This document shows, in pieces, positions 47,980 to 58,075 of a stretch of 64,000 nt of DNA. Location: NCBI GenBank assembly GCA_900316105.1, contig ONBR01000003.1:1-64000 (forward strand), read 5' to 3'. Below the pieces are notes generated by a model. That model saw nothing but the letters and a program-made list of their open reading frames with translations, was not told where the DNA came from and did no database searches. A program made the position numbers and the translations under genes. This stretch comes from an uncultured Olsenella sp. (GTDB lineage: Bacteria; Actinomycetota; Coriobacteriia; Coriobacteriales; Atopobiaceae). The first letter of the stretch is position 1. Every line of letters begins with the position of its first letter.

Positions 47980-48490
47980 TGGCACGGTCCTCTTGGCGTA
48001 GGCGGAGCTTGCGGGCAAAGCCAGCCGCGGTCTCCCGTGTGGCCACCTGCTTGTCGGCCAGGCAGAGGATCCAACCCTCGCGACAGGTAGGCGGGGTGGG
48101 TGTGAGGGGCCACATGTGGTGGCGGACCATGCTCTGCTCCAGGGGGCTGATGCCAAAGTCGCGGACGGCGTTCTTGCAGGCAAAGCCTGGGTGGCGGTAG
48201 CCGTGGAGGCGGTGGCTGGGGTCGGGCACGTGCCAGTCGTAGAGGAAGTAGTCGTGCAGGAGGGTTCCGCGGACCAGGGAGCGCTCGTTGACGGGGATCT
48301 GGTGGTCCTGGGCAAACTCGATGGCTCTGATTGTCACGGCCCAGGAGTGGGCAAAGATGCTGGTCGTCCCATGCTGGATGCAGCGGCGTTCGACATCCAT
48401 TCCGGGGGAGGACAGGATGTCGGCGCAGTGGCGTTCGATGAGCTGGGTGGCTGTGACCTGCCGAGAGATGGGACGGCGGGTGGACTTCAT
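47972..48490 (-). CDS. HD-domain protein
   Basis: A 172-residue HD-type metal-dependent phosphohydrolase: HSWAVTIRAIEFA, GTLLHDYFLYDWH (the HD pair) and RHHMWPLTP fit a compact HD domain of the kind acting on nucleotides or unknown phosphoesters. It overlaps and is probably co-expressed with the CmpB-type membrane protein. GGAGAT precedes ATG 48490. Substrate unknown. Confidence 0.75.
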   Translation of the reverse strand: MKSTRRPISRQVTATQLIERHCADILSSPGMDVERRCIQHGTTSIFAHSWAVTIRAIEFAQDHQIPVNERSLVRGTLLHDYFLYDWHVPDPSHRLHGYRHPGFACKNAVRDFGISPLEQSMVRHHMWPLTPTPPTCREGWILCLADKQVATRETAAGFARKLRLRQEDRANA

Positions 48491-48572
48491 GGCGGGAAAT
48501 CTCCTAGGGTGCGCCGATGGCGCGTCAGTACATAATTCGCCTCATTATACTGGAAGAGGCTAGGCGCGGCAG

Positions 48573-48638
48573 TGTGACAATAGTGCCAGGCACCACTGTC
48601 CCAAAATGTGACAATAGCGCCTGGCGCTATTGTCACAC
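48573..48638. repeat. R2 repeat upstream of the UvrA-like gene
   Basis: TGTGACAATAGTGCCAGGCA, CCACTGTCCCAAAATGTGAC, GCGCCTGGCGCTATTGTCACA. It ends 20 nt before the GTG start and would form a leader hairpin; a TATACT (48546-48551) lies upstream of it. Confidence 0.85.
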
Positions 48639-48657
48639 CGCAGAGAAAGGACAAGCA

Positions 48658-51165
48658 GTGCCTTCAAGGATTCAGGTTCGCGGTGCACGCGTTCACAACC
48701 TAAAGAACGTCGACGTCGACATCCCCCTGGGCGAGCTCGTGGGCATCGCCGGCGTCTCGGGCTCGGGCAAGTCCTCCCTGGCCCTGGGCGTCCTCTACGC
48801 CGAGGGAAGCCGCCGCTACCTGGAGGCACTTTCCACCTACACCCGGCGTCGCATCAGCCAGTCCGCCCGCGCGGACGTGGACGAGGTCCTGCACGTGCCG
48901 GCTGCCCTGGCCCTGCGCCAGCGCCCGGGCATCCCCGACGTGCGCTCCACCTTTGGTACCTCCACGGAGCTCCTCAACCACCTGCGCCTGCTCTTCTCGC
49001 GCGTGGGCACCTACCGCTGCCCCAAGTGTGGCCACGACGTGGGGCCCTCCATGAACGTGTCCCTGGAGCGACCCCTGGTCTGCCCCGAGTGCGGCAACGA
49101 GTTCTACGGTTTCGGCGCGGAGGAGATGGCCTTCAACTCCCAGGGTGCCTGCCCCACCTGCCAGGGCCTGGGCGTCCGCCGCGTGGTGGACCGGGATTCC
49201 CTGGTGGACGAGAACCTGACCATCGACGAGGGTGCCGTGAAGCCTTGGGGCTCCCTGATGTGGAGCCTGATGAAGGACCTGGCCCGTCAGCTGGGTGTCC
49301 GCACGGACGTGCCCTTCCGGGACCTGACGGACAAGGAGAAGGACTTCGTCTTCAACGGCCCCGCCAAGAAGCACCACATGTTCTATCACAATGAAAAGAC
49401 CAACACCGCAGGCGAGATGGACTTCACCTACTACAACGCGGTCTACTCCGTGGAGAACGCTCTCTCCAAGGTCAAGGACGAGAAGGGACTCAAACGCGTC
49501 TCTCGCTTTCTCAAGGAGGAGGTCTGTCCCGACTGCGGCGGCACCCGTCAGTCTGCGGAAAAGAGGACCGTCCGTGTCTGCGGCGAGGACCTGGGCCAGG
49601 TGACGGCAAAGACCCTGGACGAGCTGGCGGCTTGGTTGCCCGGTGTGGCACCCAGCCTACCCGATGACGTCCGCCCCATGGCCGAGGCAATCATTGCGGA
49701 GATGCAAGAGCCCATCCAGCGCCTCCAGGAGTTGGGCCTTGGCTATCTGTCCCTAGACCGCGCGAGTTCGACCCTCTCCACGGGCGAGCGCCAGCGCGTG
49801 GAGCTGACCCGCGCCGTGCGCAACCGCACGACGGGCGTCCTCTACGTCCTGGATGAGCCCTCCATCGGTCTGCATCCCTCCAACGTGGACGGACTTCTGG
49901 GCGTGATGGACGACCTGGTGGCCGATGGAAACTCCGTCCTGGTGGTGGACCACGACGTCCGCGTCCTGCGCAAGGCCGACCACCTCATAGAGGTTGGCCC
50001 CGCCTCGGGAGCCAATGGCGGACAGATCATTGCCCAGGGAACGATCGAGGAGGTGGAGGCCACGCCCGGCTCCCGCATCGCCCCCTTCCTCTCGGGCGAG
50101 CACAAGGTTCGTGCGCGCAGGCGTGCGGCCATCGAGGACGTCTTTGCTGCGGGCTCCATCCACATGGAGACGGATGCCCTGCACACGGTGAAGCCCCTCA
50201 CTGTGGACGTGCCGCGCGGGATGCTGACCTGCGTGACGGGTGCCTCGGGCTCGGGAAAGACGACCATGGTCCTGGAGAGTCTGATTCCCGGCCTCCAGGC
50301 TGCTATCGCGGGGGAGAGGCTGCCCAGCCACGTGCGGGTCATTGACGCTGACGGCATCAAGCGCGCCAGTCTCATCGATGCCACACCCATCGGAGCCAAC
50401 GTCCGCTCCACCGTGGCCACCTACTCCGGTGTCCTGGACGACCTCCGCCGCGCCTATGCTGCGACGAACGACGCCAAGGAGCGCGGGCTCAAGATGGGTG
50501 CCTTCTCATACAACACGGGCAAGCTCCGCTGCCCCACCTGCGACGGTACGGGGCAGATCTCCCTGGACGTGCAGTTCCTGCCCGACATCGACATTCCCTG
50601 CCCCGACTGCCGGGGTTCTCGCTATGCTCCCGAGGCCTGGGAGATCAAGCGCCACATGTCCCGCAACGCGGCAGGCGAGAAGGAGGACTACGTATCCCTG
50701 CCCGAGCTCATGGCCATGACCGTGGACGAGGCCCTGGTCCGTGTGGGTCGGCTCAAGAAGGCGGCAAAGAAGCTCCAGACCCTGTCTGACCTGGGCCTGG
50801 GCTACCTGACCCTGGGCGAGGCCACGCCGGCGCTCTCTGGAGGCGAGGCCCAGAGGCTCAAGCTGGCCAGCGAGATGGGGCGGCGCCAGGACGACGCGCT
50901 CTTTGTCTTTGACGAGCCGACGATTGGCCTGCATCCCCTGGACGTGGAGGTCCTCATCGGCGTCCTGCAGAAGCTGGTGGACGCGGGCGCTACGGTGGTC
51001 GTGATCGAGCACGACCTGGACATGATCGCAAACGCGGACTGGATCATCGACATGGGTCCCGGCGGCGGAGCGGCAGGCGGCACCATCGTCTGTGCCGATA
51101 CTCCCGAGGGCGTGGCCGCCTGCGAGGCCAGCGTGACGGGCAAGTACCTGGCCCAGGAGCTGTGA
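48658..51165 (+). CDS. UvrA-like ABC ATPase, class II (UvrA2)
   Basis: An 835-residue UvrA paralogue. Two ABC modules have Walker A GVSGSGKSSLALGVLYAEG (about residues 32-50) and TGASGSGKTTMVLESLIPG, signatures STGERQRVEL and SGGEAQRLKL, and zinc-finger pairs CPKCGHD...CPECG, CPTCQG and CPTCDG...CPDC. Canonical UvrA is about 940 residues and carries a UvrB-binding domain; this shorter form lacks most of it and belongs to the UvrA2 group linked to resistance to DNA-binding antibiotics or DNA-damage tolerance. GTG 48658 follows AAAGGA; upstream in-frame codons are in an R2 repeat. The TGA stop opens another R2-like repeat. Confidence 0.88.
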   Translation: MPSRIQVRGARVHNLKNVDVDIPLGELVGIAGVSGSGKSSLALGVLYAEGSRRYLEALSTYTRRRISQSARADVDEVLHVPAALALRQRPGIPDVRSTFGTSTELLNHLRLLFSRVGTYRCPKCGHDVGPSMNVSLERPLVCPECGNEFYGFGAEEMAFNSQGACPTCQGLGVRRVVDRDSLVDENLTIDEGAVKPWGSLMWSLMKDLARQLGVRTDVPFRDLTDKEKDFVFNGPAKKHHMFYHNEKTNTAGEMDFTYYNAVYSVENALSKVKDEKGLKRVSRFLKEEVCPDCGGTRQSAEKRTVRVCGEDLGQVTAKTLDELAAWLPGVAPSLPDDVRPMAEAIIAEMQEPIQRLQELGLGYLSLDRASSTLSTGERQRVELTRAVRNRTTGVLYVLDEPSIGLHPSNVDGLLGVMDDLVADGNSVLVVDHDVRVLRKADHLIEVGPASGANGGQIIAQGTIEEVEATPGSRIAPFLSGEHKVRARRRAAIEDVFAAGSIHMETDALHTVKPLTVDVPRGMLTCVTGASGSGKTTMVLESLIPGLQAAIAGERLPSHVRVIDADGIKRASLIDATPIGANVRSTVATYSGVLDDLRRAYAATNDAKERGLKMGAFSYNTGKLRCPTCDGTGQISLDVQFLPDIDIPCPDCRGSRYAPEAWEIKRHMSRNAAGEKEDYVSLPELMAMTVDEALVRVGRLKKAAKKLQTLSDLGLGYLTLGEATPALSGGEAQRLKLASEMGRRQDDALFVFDEPTIGLHPLDVEVLIGVLQKLVDAGATVVVIEHDLDMIANADWIIDMGPGGGAAGGTIVCADTPEGVAACEASVTGKYLAQEL

Positions 51166-51227
51166 CAAATAGCCCGGGGGGGAGCGTTCCCATTTTGGGA
51201 CAATCACCCCTGGGGTAAATGTCACAC
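51163..51227. repeat. Diverged R2 repeat
   Basis: TGTGACAAATAGCCCGGGGG...CATTTTGGGACAATCACCCC...AAATGTCACAC keeps the TGTGACA ends and the TTTTGGGACA spacer but has a changed centre. It supplies the UvrA2 stop and abuts the PIN remnant stop. Confidence 0.65.
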
Positions 51228-51229
51228 CC

Positions 51230-51570
51230 TTACAGCAGGTTCTCTAGCGAGTAGCGGACGCCGGTGGTGTCAAAGACGTACTCCATGAAATCGCTGGCAG
51301 TGCCTGATGGGATGAGGGACTTCTTGAAGCCGTTTGCGTCGCGGGTGATGATGTAGTCTGCAGACAGCTTCTGCGCACAGGTGCTGGCCAGGCAATCCTC
51401 GAAGTCGGGCCATCGCTCGGCCAGAGCTGCCTGGACGTCCGTGCCGTCTATGGAGCAGGCGTGCGTCCAGGTGAAGGTATCCTCCAGGAGCTCCTGCGCC
51501 GCCTGGCTTCCCAGCTCCTTGCGCATCAGGTAGAAGTAGTAAGTCAAGCAGGTGTGCCAGATTGTTTGCG
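51230..51570 (-). pseudogene. PIN-domain toxin remnant (5' end lost)
   Basis: The readable protein, from about IWHTCLTYYFYLMRKEL to SADYIITRDANGFKKSLIPS and its end, matches the C-terminal two thirds of PIN-domain proteins (the acidic DFEDCL and ITRD motifs). The N-terminal first strand with the conserved Asp is missing, and sequence beyond 51570 is unrelated, with repeated GCGTGGGAATCGCCTCTGG words. No start codon or ribosome site fits. It is a broken VapC-like toxin or an orphan PIN nuclease. Confidence 0.7.
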
Positions 51571-51984: not shown

Positions 51985-52070
51985 AGTTGTTGATGCAGTA
52001 GATTTTTCTAGGTACGATTTTTTGCTATAGAGATGACGCTGTGTCCAGTAGAGTGCTGGAAGTCTGGCTA

Positions 52071-53522
52071 ATGGGAACTAATTCAACTGCTTATGACCAG
52101 AGCGACAAATGGTCGATAACCGCATATGCGGAGCGTTTGGTAGGCATGACCTTCCGTGATGTCTTGGATTTGGGGATAATCTCTCCGCGCATGAGGCCGG
52201 AGGATGCTCAGAAGACATACGGTCGCAAGAAGTACAAAGGCGGTATGGGCAATCTTCTTGAAGAGCGGTACTTCGGTTACGACGCCAATAGCGTGGATGA
52301 AGCTGACTTCGCTGAGGCGGGAATCGAGCTCAAGGCTACCTGCTATGACACACTGAAGGATGGGAGTCTTTCTGCCGGCGAGCGTTTGGTCTTGACGATG
52401 ATTCCAAACGATAAACCAGTGGAAGCGGAGCTTGAAGACTCCCATATGTGGCACAAGAGCCAGGAGATTCTGCTCGTTTACTACGGGCGAAACAAATCGA
52501 TTCCCAGCTATGACCAGAAAATTAGCTTTGTCTCGCTATTCACTCCTCCGAAGTCAGACTTGGCGGTCATCGAGGAAGACTACCGACAGATTGCCTCGCT
52601 CGTTCGAGCGGGAAGGGCAGACGAACTCTCGGAATCCCTTACAAGTTATCTTGGCGCTTGTACGAAAGGGTCGAATAGGGGGAAGAGCACGCAACCCCAG
52701 CACTACTATGCTCCCGACAAGTTGGCTCGTCGCCGTGCGTGGTGCTACAAGCGCAACTACATGGATTATGTGCTGCACCACTACGTGATGGGCCAGGCAA
52801 AAGCCGAGTCGCTTGGCGTCTGGGGAAGCGAGCTAAAACGGTACGTCGAGGACATAATCAACTCCCATGCGGGTGAGACTGACGTTCAACTCTGCATCGA
52901 GCTCGGCATGCCTTACACGGGCAACAAGGCCCAATGGTCCTCCATCGCCTACCGCCTCTTGGGCGTAAGGGGGGATAGGGCTGACGAGTTTGAGAAGGCG
53001 GGTATCATCGTGCGAGCTATCCGCGAGGAGTCTGACGGCAGAGTGAGGGAGAGCGTACCTTTCCCGCCGTTCCGTTTTGCGGATCTTGCGGCAGAGGAAT
53101 CTTGGGAGGAATCGCAGCTCAAGGAATACGTTGAGGATACCCGGTACCTGTTCGTGGCCTTTCGCAAGCAGGAGGACGGCACATCGGTCCTGCGCGGATG
53201 CCTCCTGTGGCATATGCCGGAAAAGGATGTCGAGGGCCCTTTGCGAGAATGCTGGGAAAGGACCGCCAAAACGGTTCGTGCTGGAGTCTCCATCATTCGT
53301 GATGGTAAGAGGTTCCACAACGACCTACCTAAGATGGCGGAAAATCCCGTGGCACATGTTCGTCCCCACTCAACGAGGTCGGCCTATCGAATTGGCCAGC
53401 TTGAGGTGGGTAACGTCCAAAGCGATGCCGATGAGCTCCCTGACGGCAGATGGATGACACGGCAAAGCTTCTGGCTCAATCATGACTACATCGCCAAGGT
53501 GCTGAGGGATGCGGGACTATAG
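52071..53522 (+). CDS. Sau3AI-like type II restriction endonuclease
   Basis: A 483-residue protein similar in length and layout to Sau3AI: a MutH-like catalytic half with KGGMGNLLEERYFGYDANS (about residues 57-75) and DFAEAGIELKATCYD (the D...ExK active site), then a second MutH-like half (from about 250, with DVQLCIELGMPYTGNKAQW). Sau3AI cuts GATC without needing dam-type protection, so GATC is the inferred site. GC content is clearly below that of the genome. ATG 52071 follows GGAAG; GTG 52041 is an alternative. The partner methylase is at 54830. Confidence 0.85.
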   Translation: MGTNSTAYDQSDKWSITAYAERLVGMTFRDVLDLGIISPRMRPEDAQKTYGRKKYKGGMGNLLEERYFGYDANSVDEADFAEAGIELKATCYDTLKDGSLSAGERLVLTMIPNDKPVEAELEDSHMWHKSQEILLVYYGRNKSIPSYDQKISFVSLFTPPKSDLAVIEEDYRQIASLVRAGRADELSESLTSYLGACTKGSNRGKSTQPQHYYAPDKLARRRAWCYKRNYMDYVLHHYVMGQAKAESLGVWGSELKRYVEDIINSHAGETDVQLCIELGMPYTGNKAQWSSIAYRLLGVRGDRADEFEKAGIIVRAIREESDGRVRESVPFPPFRFADLAAEESWEESQLKEYVEDTRYLFVAFRKQEDGTSVLRGCLLWHMPEKDVEGPLRECWERTAKTVRAGVSIIRDGKRFHNDLPKMAENPVAHVRPHSTRSAYRIGQLEVGNVQSDADELPDGRWMTRQSFWLNHDYIAKVLRDAGL

Positions 53523-53552
53523 GCTGCAACCAAATCGCTAAAGGGGGATGCG

Positions 53553-54257
53553 GTGCCAAAGAGCAGATTTCAATAAGACGTCAACGTATCAGTGGAGACC
53601 GAAAAACTGGTAATAAGCGTCTTGGAACGTTGTGGGAATATTTCCCCGAACCAAATTCACGTTGCAGGATTCGATTATCACGCTGGGCTCCAGATGGAGG
53701 GTTGTGACATCGTAATCGACGTTCCGAGAAGGTACGGTGGCACGAAAAACGGTTCACGCGTCTATATCGACGTTAAAGCGGCGACAAACTATCTTGGGCG
53801 TCCTCTAGATACATTTGCGCAGGAAATCGCCTAGAAGAAGGCAGGAAAGATACACAGAGGATGGCTGGTGGACCCCAGTAAAAGGACCGACATCTATGCG
53901 TATTGCTGGTTCCCTGAGGCTCGCCAGAAATCGTGAAAGTCGAACGGTTATCTGAATAAGGTTACTGATGCGGTGACTGCGGACATCGCCTTCGTATGTA
54001 GTGAAGACCTCCGAAACCTGATATTGGATGCATATGAAACCGGAGGTGGACGCGTAGTTCATTCCGAAGACGGCTTCGTCCGGCTGGCAGACACCTTGGT
54101 TCAATATGCAGAAGAGCACTATGTGGATGGTACAGAAGTGAAAGTGGGCGGATATCGACTTTTTAAGACAAAGTCAAGACATCTCAATGAAGAGCCGTGG
54201 AACCTGCTCGTAAAAAAGGTGATTTGCAGAAAATATCTCTGTTCAATTGCAGGATAA
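53553..54257 (+). pseudogene. Restriction-island accessory gene with three in-frame stops
   Basis: One reading frame of about 234 codons runs from GTG 53553 (with AAGGGGGATG upstream) to TAA 54257. It is interrupted by TAA 53574, TAG 53832 and TGA near 53934, with the frame and protein-like sequence otherwise intact: GGTKNGSRVYIDVKAATNYL, LDTFAQEIA, GWLVDPSKRTDIYAYCWFPE, and a C-terminal half from VTADIAFVCSEDL. Each stop is one C-to-T change from a sense codon (CAA, CAG, CGA). The DVKAAT...TFAQE...DIYAYCWF pattern is nuclease-like but unassigned. It lies between REase and methylase. Confidence 0.65.
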
Positions 54258-54748
54258 ACATACAGGCACATGGTGACAGTGAGTACCAATGGTCTATTGA
54301 TAACGCTCATGCGCGCACGAAAGGTCCTTTTTGCTGGATATTCAAGGGGGCAGTTTCTGATGACCAGCCGATATCCTCAGCCGTTGATAAACCGGACGTT
54401 AGTTGCGAATCAGCTGAGTTGATCAAAGAAGATCCTTGCTTACAGCACGCTAGCATTAACCAGGGAAATGCTGATGATTGTACTAGTCAAAGCAAAAGTT
54501 TGACTCCGAAACAGCTGATTAATCGCCCTGGATTTGAGGGTTTCAAGAACACAATGGAGCTAAGGGAGAGACTACTTCACCTTGGTCTCGCTTGCCGTGC
54601 TGGTGACGGAGGATGGCAGCCAACTGAGGTAGGAGAGAACCTTGGTATTGAGAAAGCCGTTAATAAAAACTCTTACTGCCGATTCCGCTTCGAGATGTTG
54701 GACTATATCCGTGTCGCTATGGGGATGGGTAGTGCTGACGATGACTAA
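54197..54748 (+). CDS. Hypothetical protein between REase and methylase
   Basis: About 183 residues with low GC codon use; no family recognised. The C-terminal part (LTPKQLINRPGFEGFKNTME, LLHLGLACRAGDGGWQPTEVG) resembles small DNA-associated helical domains seen at phage antirepressor ends, but this is weak. Its start overlaps the preceding pseudogene by about 60 bp, and the first codon is uncertain (GTG 54197 has no clear site), so it may be the shifted tail of a single broken gene. Confidence 0.4.
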   Translation: MEPARKKGDLQKISLFNCRINIQAHGDSEYQWSIDNAHARTKGPFCWIFKGAVSDDQPISSAVDKPDVSCESAELIKEDPCLQHASINQGNADDCTSQSKSLTPKQLINRPGFEGFKNTMELRERLLHLGLACRAGDGGWQPTEVGENLGIEKAVNKNSYCRFRFEMLDYIRVAMGMGSADDD

Positions 54749-54829
54749 TTGGGGCCTTTGCGTTCTACTTGTCGCACCGATCGGCTAAGATTGATCGCAC
54801 GACGGGACACAGTCAGCGATTGGAGAAAC

Positions 54830-56110
54830 GTGCCCGAGAAGATCAAGGTTGCCGAGCTCTTTGCGGGGGTCGGCGGGTTCAGGCTGGGCCTGGACGGCTA
54901 CCACAGCGACGAGCGCCCCGAGTGGGACCTGCCCGCAGCGGGTCCCTTCGAGACCGTGTGGGCGAACCAGTGGGAGCCTCCAGGAACGAAGACCAGGCAG
55001 TTCGCGGCCAGGTGCTACGAGGAGCGCTTCGGCGAGGGCTCCGTGGTGAACGAGGACATACACGAGGTCCTGGAGGCCGTGGACGCGGGCAAGAGGGACG
55101 TGCCCGACGTGGACATGGTCGTCGGCGGCTTCCCCTGCCAGGACTACTCCGTGGCCAGGACCCTCGCCGACGCCAAGGGCATCGAGGGCAAGAAGGGCGT
55201 CCTCTGGTGGGACATCTACAATTTCCTGGAGATACAGATCTCCAAGTCCCCGAACAACGCGAGGTACTGCCTCTTCGAGAACGTGGACCGGCTCCTGAAG
55301 TCGCCCGCCAGGCAGCGCGGCCGCGACTTCGCGATCATCCTCTCCTGCCTGGCGAGGCTGGGCTACTCCGTGGAGTGGAGGGTCGTGAACTCCGGGGAGT
55401 ACGGCTTCCCGCAGAGGAGGAAGCGCACCTACATCTACGCGGTGAGGAACGCCGGCACCTGGGACCTGGAGGAGCGCGTGCGCACGGGGGTCATGGCCTC
55501 GGCCTTCCCCATGGAGGACCCCACTGAGTACGGCGGGCTCGACATACCCGAGGACCCCTACTCGATCACCCTGCACTTCAACGACGGGGGCAGGGTCTCG
55601 CCCTTCCGCGACTGCGGGGCCATGCAGGGCTACCGCGTGGCCACGGCGAAGGTCACGGAGGCATACGAGGAGAGGCCGGGCAGGCTGGCCGACGTGCTGG
55701 TGCCCGAGGGGGAGGTGCCCGAGCAGTTCTACGTGGACGGGGCGAGCCTCCCCAGGTGGACCTACCTCAAGGGCGCCAAGCACGAGCCAAGGGTTGCCCG
55801 CAACGGCCACGAGTACATGTACTCCGAGGGCGCCATGTCCTTCCCTGACAGCCTGGAGAAGCCGTCCAGGACCATCCTCACCGGCGAGGGCGGCACCAGC
55901 CCCTCGCGCTTCAAGCACGTGATCGAGGTAAACGGCCGCCTGCGACGCCTGGTGCCCGACGAGCTGGACCAGCTCCAGGGCTTCCCCAGGGGCTGGACCT
56001 CCGGCATGACCGACGGCCACAGGGCCTTCTGCATGGGAAACGCGCTCGTCGTGGGGATACCGCACAGGATCGGGGTGGAGATTGCCCATAGAATAGAGTC
56101 CGGCGACTAG
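54830..56110 (+). CDS. DNA (cytosine-5) methyltransferase
   Basis: A 426-residue C5 methylase. Motif I is VAELFAGVGGFRLGLDG (residues 6-22), motif IV is VVGGFPCQDYSVAR with the catalytic Cys, motif VI is FENVDRLL, motif VIII is QRRKRTYIYA, motif IX is RRLVPDELDQLQGFP and motif X is GNALVVGIPHRIG. The target-recognition region lies between VIII and IX. Paired with the Sau3AI-like nuclease it should protect GATC at the C. Composition is strikingly different from the REase: very high GC with AGG for Arg and ATA for Ile, so the halves of the system have separate histories. GTG 54830 follows GGAG. Confidence 0.9.
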   Translation: MPEKIKVAELFAGVGGFRLGLDGYHSDERPEWDLPAAGPFETVWANQWEPPGTKTRQFAARCYEERFGEGSVVNEDIHEVLEAVDAGKRDVPDVDMVVGGFPCQDYSVARTLADAKGIEGKKGVLWWDIYNFLEIQISKSPNNARYCLFENVDRLLKSPARQRGRDFAIILSCLARLGYSVEWRVVNSGEYGFPQRRKRTYIYAVRNAGTWDLEERVRTGVMASAFPMEDPTEYGGLDIPEDPYSITLHFNDGGRVSPFRDCGAMQGYRVATAKVTEAYEERPGRLADVLVPEGEVPEQFYVDGASLPRWTYLKGAKHEPRVARNGHEYMYSEGAMSFPDSLEKPSRTILTGEGGTSPSRFKHVIEVNGRLRRLVPDELDQLQGFPRGWTSGMTDGHRAFCMGNALVVGIPHRIGVEIAHRIESGD

Positions 56111-56146
56111 TTACCCACGCCCGGCTACCGGATCGAAAATGCTACG

Positions 56147-56195
56147 GAAACCCCCTTGGATATCCTGGAAACAGGGGTCCGAGGGGGTTTCTTTA
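56147..56195 (+). terminator. Terminator after the methylase gene
   Basis: GAAACCCCCTTGGA pairs with TCCGAGGGGGTTTC, followed by TTTAT. The stem has one internal mismatch. Confidence 0.8.
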
Positions 56196-56230
56196 TGGCT
56201 AACGCGAACTAGAGCGAGGATGAAACGCTG

Positions 56231-56968
56231 ATGGCGTTTACCCTCTACCAACGTCTTGATGCCAGTGAGATTTCCACATCCAACAAGGAAGTTAAGCGCC
56301 TTGCCGCCATTACCGGCAGGAGTGAGAACTCGGTAAAACTAAAGCTTTGGAACCTGTCCAGCTTCGACCCATACCGCGTCGCCCAGGGAAAACGAGGCAT
56401 GGGGCATGCGAGCAAGAAGGACAGGGCAATCTGGGACCGCTACCTGCAGGAGGGCGACGCTCTTGTGGCGAGGGGCATAGAGCTGCTGAACCGCAACTAC
56501 CACGAGAGGCAGTTGCTCGGGCCCAACGAGTCGTTCCTCGATATCGAGCTTCCTGAGGGCGGGAACGTGCTCGTCCTGGCCACGCAGCGTGTGCACCAGA
56601 ACTTCTTCCGAAAGTCCCTGCTAGAGAACTATCGGCATAGGTGCTGCGTCACGGGCATCGACAACGATACGCTGCTCATCGCGAGCCACATCAAGCCCTG
56701 GGCTGACTCGGACCCCTTCGAGGAGCGCACGTCTCCAGCAAATGGTCTCTTGCTCAATGCCCTCCACGACAAGGCCTTCGACAAGGGCTTGATGACAATC
56801 GACCAGGACTACCACATACACGTCTCGCACAAGGTCAAGGACCACGGTGCCCTGCACGACTGGCTCTGGGCCTACGACGGCAGACGGATTGCCCTGCCAG
56901 AAAACGCGCGATGGCGTCCCAGGCGTGATTTTATCGAGTACCACAACGACGTGATTTGGCAGGGATAG
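56231..56968 (+). CDS. HNH endonuclease (HNH_2 type)
   Basis: A 245-residue protein. The C-terminal HNH_2 domain has YRHRCCVTGIDNDTLLIASHIKPWAD, then SPANGLLLNALHDKAFDKGLMTID, with the His-Asn-His and zinc Cys residues. The N-terminal ~90 residues carry a helical DNA-binding-like region (STSNKEVKRLAAITGRSENS). Such proteins flank restriction-modification loci as extra nucleases that may act on differently modified DNA. AGGATG lies upstream of ATG 56231. The locus has its own terminator before it, so it is expressed separately from the methylase. Confidence 0.85.
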   Translation: MAFTLYQRLDASEISTSNKEVKRLAAITGRSENSVKLKLWNLSSFDPYRVAQGKRGMGHASKKDRAIWDRYLQEGDALVARGIELLNRNYHERQLLGPNESFLDIELPEGGNVLVLATQRVHQNFFRKSLLENYRHRCCVTGIDNDTLLIASHIKPWADSDPFEERTSPANGLLLNALHDKAFDKGLMTIDQDYHIHVSHKVKDHGALHDWLWAYDGRRIALPENARWRPRRDFIEYHNDVIWQG

Positions 56969-57282: not shown

Positions 57283-57396
57283 CTGCCGAAAGGCCGGACA
57301 ATCCATCGACAAGCGGACGATGGCCAGGATTCTAGACCTCGTTGGTGGCACATTCGGCATCTGACCGTGTGACGAAATCCCCGGGGGAGATTGTCT
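57283..57396. repeat. Direct repeat flanking mazEF, left copy (mazF 3' remnant)
   Basis: About 114 bp, over 90% identical to 57961-58075 (offset 678). It encodes the last residues of MazF (QSIDKRTMARILDLVGGTFG) and its TGA, followed by the same CCGGGGG downstream sequence. It marks the end of a lost or recombined first mazF. Confidence 0.9.
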
Positions 57397-57443
57397 TACG
57401 GAAGTATATACTATGTTTATACAATGTGACCGAGGGGGCAGTC

Positions 57444-57704
57444 ATGCAGACCACGCTACGCAAATGGGGCAACAGCCAGGGGATTCTCATTCCCCGCGAA
57501 ATCTGTGTCTCTGTCGACATCAACGTTGGGGACACGTTTGAGTTCGAAATAGGGGAGGACCGAACTATCCTTCTTCGACCCGAAGCCTCGCACTACCATC
57601 GCAATACTCGGGCAAGCCTAGAGGAGCTAACGGCTGGCTGGGCAGGGCCAAGGGCTGGCGAGGAGTGGGGTGGCCACGATGTGGGCAATGAGGTGGTCGC
57701 ATGA
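57444..57704 (+). CDS. mazE: MazE-type antitoxin (AbrB fold)
   Basis: An 86-residue protein. The N-terminal swapped-hairpin DNA-binding domain reads TTLRKWGNSQGILIPREICV, typical of MazE/PemI, and the acidic/Gly-rich C-terminal tail would bind the toxin. It neutralises the MazF encoded next and represses its own promoter. CGAGGGGG precedes ATG 57444. Its stop overlaps the toxin start (ATGA), so the two are translationally coupled. Confidence 0.9.
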   Translation: MQTTLRKWGNSQGILIPREICVSVDINVGDTFEFEIGEDRTILLRPEASHYHRNTRASLEELTAGWAGPRAGEEWGGHDVGNEVVA

Positions 57705-58042
57705 TCTTTGACCAGGGAGAGTACATCTGGATGGACTTCGACCCTACGGTAGGTCATGAGCCCCAGAAAATGAGGCCTGCCTTGGTGATGAGCGTGGGCT
57801 ACTTTAACAACGTATTGTCGTCGTTGGTCATGGTCTGCCCGATTACCAGCACAGTGAATGGCCATCCGCTCCATGTGGAGCTTCCTGCCGACGCACCGGT
57901 CCAGGGCTGTGTGTGCGTTGAAGGACTGCGCGCCGTCGACCTCAATAGCCCCTATAGGCACTGTCGAAAGGTCGGACAATCCATCGACAAGCGGACGATG
58001 GCCAGGATTCTAGACCTCGTTGGTGGTACATTCGGCATCTGA
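57701..58042 (+). CDS. mazF: MazF/PemK-type mRNA interferase toxin
   Basis: A 113-residue toxin: GEYIWMDFDPTVGHEPQKMRPALVMS (the conserved beta hairpin with PxxGxEpxkxRPalV), VCPITSTVNGHPLHVEL and VEGLRAVDLNSPYR. It cleaves mRNA at short single-strand motifs. Its last 25 codons and following ~35 bp are duplicated at 57283, upstream of mazE. Confidence 0.92.
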   Translation: MIFDQGEYIWMDFDPTVGHEPQKMRPALVMSVGYFNNVLSSLVMVCPITSTVNGHPLHVELPADAPVQGCVCVEGLRAVDLNSPYRHCRKVGQSIDKRTMARILDLVGGTFGI

Positions 58043-58075
58043 TCGTGTGACGAAATCCCCGGGGGGAAATCGTCT
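57961..58075. repeat. Direct repeat flanking mazEF, right copy
   Basis: The 3' end of mazF and its downstream CCCCGGGGGG sequence; partner of 57283-57396. Confidence 0.9.

Follow-up and report, generated by a model that had tools for sequence, protein, structure and literature searches.

A probable decayed accessory gene flanked by the endonuclease gene and the methyltransferase gene in a Sau3AI-like restriction–modification system of an uncultured Olsenella

The space between the endonuclease gene (R) and the methyltransferase gene (M) of a Sau3AI-like restriction–modification (R-M) system in an uncultured Olsenella sp. appears to harbour the remains of a third gene. It lies at 53553-54748 of the window, the whole stretch of 64,000 nucleotides analysed here. 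There is good reason to regard it as a pseudogene, about 399 codons long, that extends from GTG 53553 to the TAA ending at 54748, with three nonsense codons and one -1 change of frame near a run of six adenines (A6), and to see in it an acquired accessory gene which decayed in the R-M slot. It resembles an ordinary dead gene, not a recoded one.

Extent of the broken gene and its lesions

The 5' part of the gene comprises 222 codons of frame 0 on the forward strand (53553-54218). It begins with GTG 53553, 5 bases downstream of AAAGGGGG (53540-53547, forward strand), which was recognised from the sequence as Shine-Dalgarno-like. Inside this frame lie TAA 53574, TAG 53832 and TGA 53934, and a further TAA follows at 54255-54257. 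TAA 53574 is relevant only if translation begins at GTG 53553; a second in-frame GTG, with no ribosome site visible before it, is located 3' of this stop, at 53592. The 3' part continues on the same strand in the -1 frame (54218-54748), is open to TAA 54746-54748 and encodes a C-terminal region of no known family. Counted from its first start codon at 54197, the open reading frame of the -1 frame ends at 54748 and comprises 183 aa.

When the two frames are connected at the A6 run (54212-54217), a single path of about 399 codons results, which contains four stops, the terminal one included. The best paths through 500 dinucleotide-preserving shuffles of 53553-54748, with one frame change permitted, contained 13.6 stops on average (sd 2.4, minimum 7). 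This scarcity of stops implies that 53553-54748 is a real coding remnant. It carries more than one disabling lesion, namely a -1 change of frame in addition to the three internal stops, in a frame that is otherwise open beyond chance. The sequence-only reading had correctly placed one stop of each kind in the frame and a ribosome site upstream of its start. It had also described a 234-codon frame, otherwise intact to 54257 and free of indels; this was wrong because coding goes on to 54748 in the -1 frame after a change at or near the A6 run. A seemingly "clean" frame concealed a frameshift. The claim that an accessory gene has been inactivated is now better founded than when it was first made, since the frame break adds to the nonsense codons.

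The same stretch could be divided into two or three short genes, of 80 aa from 53592, 94 aa from 53973 and 183 aa from 54197, each with a possible start codon. This arrangement is very unlikely, considering that the three pieces combine into one collinear frame path, that none of them has a usable family match of its own and that the only relative found, a Psychrobacillus protein described below, runs through the TAG in a single aligned block. It is also highly improbable that assembly or sequencing errors made an intact gene look broken. The source is indeed a 42-contig assembly that is 91.6% complete, and the A6 run is a classic error site that could by itself account for the frameshift. However, three stop substitutions and the shift would all have to be errors within 1.2 kb, right beside intact genes for R (1.5 kb), M (1.3 kb) and an HNH protein (0.7 kb) that agree with their families or relatives.

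The frame switch can be confined to the interval between the last stop of the -1 frame (54188-54190) and the frame-0 stop at 54255. At the A6 run on the forward strand, frame 0 reads GTA AAA AAG (54210-54218), which contains the heptamer A AAA AAG, a known slippery type. This coincidence could point to a living gene, in which the stops are read through and A AAA AAG serves as a programmed -1 frameshift site, so that scant full-length protein is made, a brake on a nuclease. The path read through the stops, with far fewer of them than in shuffles, would suit such a gene. Conserved in-frame stops of bacterial genes, possibly read through, were reported in 2021 (PMC7918605). Recoding is nevertheless extremely improbable here, as ribosomes would need to get past three stops of three kinds and a shift on the same mRNA. 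No stimulatory structure was seen after the A6 run, where the RNA (54211-54300; pseudoknot-free folding) folds no better than its shuffles (z -0.29). The stops and the shift are common to no relative, and a conserved frame switch was not seen in the Psychrobacillus protein, the one relative, which is a single open frame throughout. The earlier suggestion of stops read through under some condition found no positive evidence.

Compared with the same relative over 12 residues without gaps, the -1 continuation scores -3 and the frame-0 tail -22. At the frame break, SRHLNEEPWNLLVKKGDL of the -1 reading is collinear with SKDLPEQPINIVMTRDEL (local score 34, p 621/10000), and the frame-0 reading gives a local score of 29 (p 1853/10000). 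On these scores, the -1 tail appears to match the sole relative slightly better than the frame-0 tail does.

The genetic code places every TAA, TAG or TGA, in any genome, a single C-to-T step away from CAA, CAG or CGA, and the pattern therefore carries no information on cytosine deamination. The earlier observation that each stop is a single C-to-T change is thus formally true but empty. Inactivation by one mutation class, as expected from deamination, had been derived from it; this finds no support, given the tautology and the frameshift, which is a different class. An apparent single-mutation-class pattern of stops can, as here, be a tautology of the code. That all three stops arose by deamination, perhaps at cytosines methylated by the product of the adjoining cytosine methyltransferase gene, is very unlikely, even though all are formally one C-to-T step away. 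In no case is the T of the stop directly preceded by GAT, as 5-methylcytosine deamination in GATC would leave it; that the adjoining methyltransferase acts on GATC is presumed from the Sau3AI-family match. Moreover, deamination cannot account for the frame change. The glutamine, glutamine and arginine anticipated at the stops are not confirmable because the Psychrobacillus relative is too distant (23% identity). In this alignment, at 23% overall identity, Leu, or Tyr beside a gap, stands opposite TAG 53832, no column sets a Gln of the relative against a stop, and TAA 53574 and TGA 53934 fall in non-significant parts.

Relatives and presumed function

A close intact copy, by which the supposedly recent lesions might be dated, was found in none of 200 related, 140 family, 396 class and 396 phylum genomes, overlapping sets that each include the genome itself; for this reason, functional loss by decay is read from the lesions themselves. 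The protein occurs in its own genome only among the 200 relatives and the 140 family genomes. A two-row profile of the broken gene and its Psychrobacillus relative likewise returned only the own genome from the 396 class and 396 phylum genomes. The protein search of the phylum gave matches in 14 other genomes (15 of 396 in all, E 0.004-0.09). The ten of them that a local search re-found are taken as chance from their alignments, because they are, as far as we recognise them, PafA-like, an AAA ATPase and other unrelated proteins. No relatives were found in phages or in genome and viral contig scans.

Family scans, with Pfam, NCBIfam and PADLOC among the libraries, gave no usable match to the broken gene, and faint matches in Pfam, NCBIfam and PHROG, with E from 0.047 to 0.22, were put down to chance. 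Six matches from a PDB sequence search (E up to 5) were discarded: the best added up repeats that each lay below the threshold, and the remaining five were weak and concerned unrelated proteins. The two-row profile found no relative in the PDB. In a wide DNA search of plasmids, the locus matched over short stretches of its methyltransferase and HNH genes and nowhere else, and promoter and terminator scans at the locus gave no more than in shuffles. None of the libraries used gave a match to the C-terminal part at 54480-54748 (LTPKQLINRPGF...GWQPTEVGENLGI), and the Psychrobacillus relative lacks it; this part could be a domain of its own.

The sole weak match among 72,556 plasmid records (E 0.5) is WP_151702168.1 (PB01_RS20725), a hypothetical protein of 222 aa encoded by an intact single open frame on plasmid pPB01 of Psychrobacillus glaciei. 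Overall identity is 23%, and a block of 73 aa with 32% identity spans TAG 53832. For this stop, the homologue thus neither ends at it nor starts after it, the two outcomes that the sequence-only reading had named as contrary to its own view. The local alignment score is 95, compared with a null of 30.5 ± 4.5, and was reached by 0 of 2000 shuffles, a figure that overstates the case because the pair was chosen from a large search. The flanks of the block are not significant alone (N flank p 2021/5000, C flank p 933/5000); in local alignment, the values are p 9569/10000 for the N flank and p 621/10000 for the C flank. The island around WP_151702168.1 comprises dcm, a PLD family gene, a BglII/BstYI-type restriction endonuclease gene, HNH and Abi.

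The 5' part of the broken gene contains CDIVIDV...VYIDVKA, which we take to resemble the active-site block of PD-(D/E)XK nucleases; IDEK stands at the same place in the Psychrobacillus relative. Judged by this motif, the gene probably once encoded a nuclease of the PD-(D/E)XK type. The assignment is drawn from one motif because no family or PDB match was obtained (no PD-(D/E)XK profile in Pfam, NCBIfam or PADLOC, nor a PDB entry by sequence) and because the AlphaFold single-sequence model, with a mean pLDDT of 35.9, is too poor for a structure search.

The R-M genes and the space between them

Upstream of the broken gene lies an intact gene for a type II restriction endonuclease of the Sau3AI family (GATC) at 52041-53522 (forward strand; NF040973, 452 bits, cut-off 300), whose product is 70% identical to that of L042/L058, from the related loci, over nearly its whole length. 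Downstream, on the same strand, an intact cytosine-5 DNA methyltransferase gene is found at 54812-56110 (PF00145, E 1.3e-48; TIGR00675; PADLOC MTase_II); its open reading frame opens at 54749, and the Pfam match starts near 54842. An endonuclease above the cut-off and a cytosine-5 methyltransferase thus make up a Sau3AI-type R-M system. It is followed at 56231-56968 (forward strand) by an intact HNH endonuclease gene that resembles those for restriction of PT-DNA (PF13391; PADLOC HNH, 221 bits; NF045808, 80 bits, below the cut-off of 180). In 500-base steps, the GC content is 46-52% in 53250-54749, against 60-70% in 48000-51499 and 54750-56249.

Repeats were observed on both sides of this region. 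A direct repeat of 105 nt (57283-57387 and 57961-58065; 96% identical, 678 apart) flanks a small gene pair at 57342-58042, presumably a toxin–antitoxin pair of the MazEF type, and contains the 3' end of its second gene; the repeat is a remnant of a duplicated unit. An inverted repeat of 35 nt (48569-48641; 83% complementary, 3-nt loop) lies at the start of an open reading frame at 48517-51165, which we assume to be UvrA-like, and a related inverted copy follows this frame at 51188-51227.

A match to the Sau3AI family occurs in 49 of the 200 related genomes. Thirty loci were compared. The starting set, also of 30, included the own locus, which was dropped; longer cuts at the same positions were used instead of eight short loci, and a second place in one genome was added. 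M is present in 29 of the 30, the exception (L059) being a contig of 4.3 kb. The gap between R and M measures 72-221 nt in 22 of these 29 loci, five of which have R and M on opposite strands, and 765-3689 nt in the remaining seven. R is at least 55% identical to that of the window in eight loci, seven of which contain M, and in six of these seven the gap is long; in the locus of the nearest R (L058, 70%) it is short.

The long gaps differ in content. L053 carries a Schlafen-type helicase, which also matches GIY-YIG weakly, and a protein of 282 aa, L054 carries GmrSD, and L061 carries DUF4238 and AbiH. Recognised defence-type families are thus present in three of the seven, and the others hold proteins with no assigned function: a lipoprotein-like protein of 198 aa in L055, two near-identical copies (98.5%) of a 396-aa protein in L056 and L057, and a relative of the latter (44%) in L041. 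The defence families in three long gaps make it likelier that the broken gene had a defence role.

A protein of roughly 375-403 aa, here called "ELKK", recurs beside or inside R-M pairs (L056:3526-4716, L057:3571-4761, L060:284-1495 and L041 from about 2780). The versions of L056/L057, L041 and L060 are 39-45% identical and share the block ELKK ... MKYV.WV..EYA.GDYS. By motif, we assume it to be nuclease-like; neither Pfam nor PADLOC matched the two members scanned (L056, L060). The broken gene was compared with this family and is not a member.

In one branch of the Sau3AI-like systems of this order, the R-M space may tentatively be regarded as a turnover slot, where unrelated defence-type genes arrive, persist under the protection of the addictive pair and disappear by decay, with the broken gene as a dying tenant from a nuclease family new to description; this is a serious possibility but falls short of a probable one. 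Its tenants would include GmrSD, AbiH with DUF4238, a Schlafen-type helicase and the undescribed "ELKK" family. In the literature, which was available in part, no description was found of a slot for passengers separating R from M in Sau3AI-like systems. As a dead gene, the broken gene matters little. The slot is the better lead: should it be confirmed, undescribed defence genes could easily be sought there.

Decay and comparison with known systems

The intact ancestor would have been a laterally acquired accessory gene of low GC content, whose product was probably a nuclease of the PD-(D/E)XK type that bore a C-terminal extension. This gene would have settled between the endonuclease and methyltransferase genes of the Sau3AI-like system, in a slot that appears to carry other passengers in related loci, some of them defence genes. 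Once the gene no longer paid its way, or turned harmful, it would have been subject to ordinary mutational decay. R and M would have been kept intact meanwhile, because loss of M alone would be lethal and loss of R would remove protection.

Like the broken gene, ordinary pseudogenes in R-M loci and defence islands have several independent lesions and intact neighbours, and there is no evident difference between them. With the PD-(D/E)XK superfamily, the broken gene would share the order D ... D-V-K, taken here as the motif of that superfamily, in predicted strands followed by a helix, according to the low-confidence model. WP_151702168.1 resembles it in the 73-aa block at 32% identity, with an ID.K / DVK-like motif, and in its position in an R-M island that comprises a cytosine methyltransferase gene and an HNH gene. 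Unlike the broken gene, the Psychrobacillus gene is intact, and its product of 222 aa is without the C-terminal extension of about 150-170 aa. The restriction endonuclease near it is of the BglII/BstYI type, whereas that near the broken gene belongs to the Sau3AI family.
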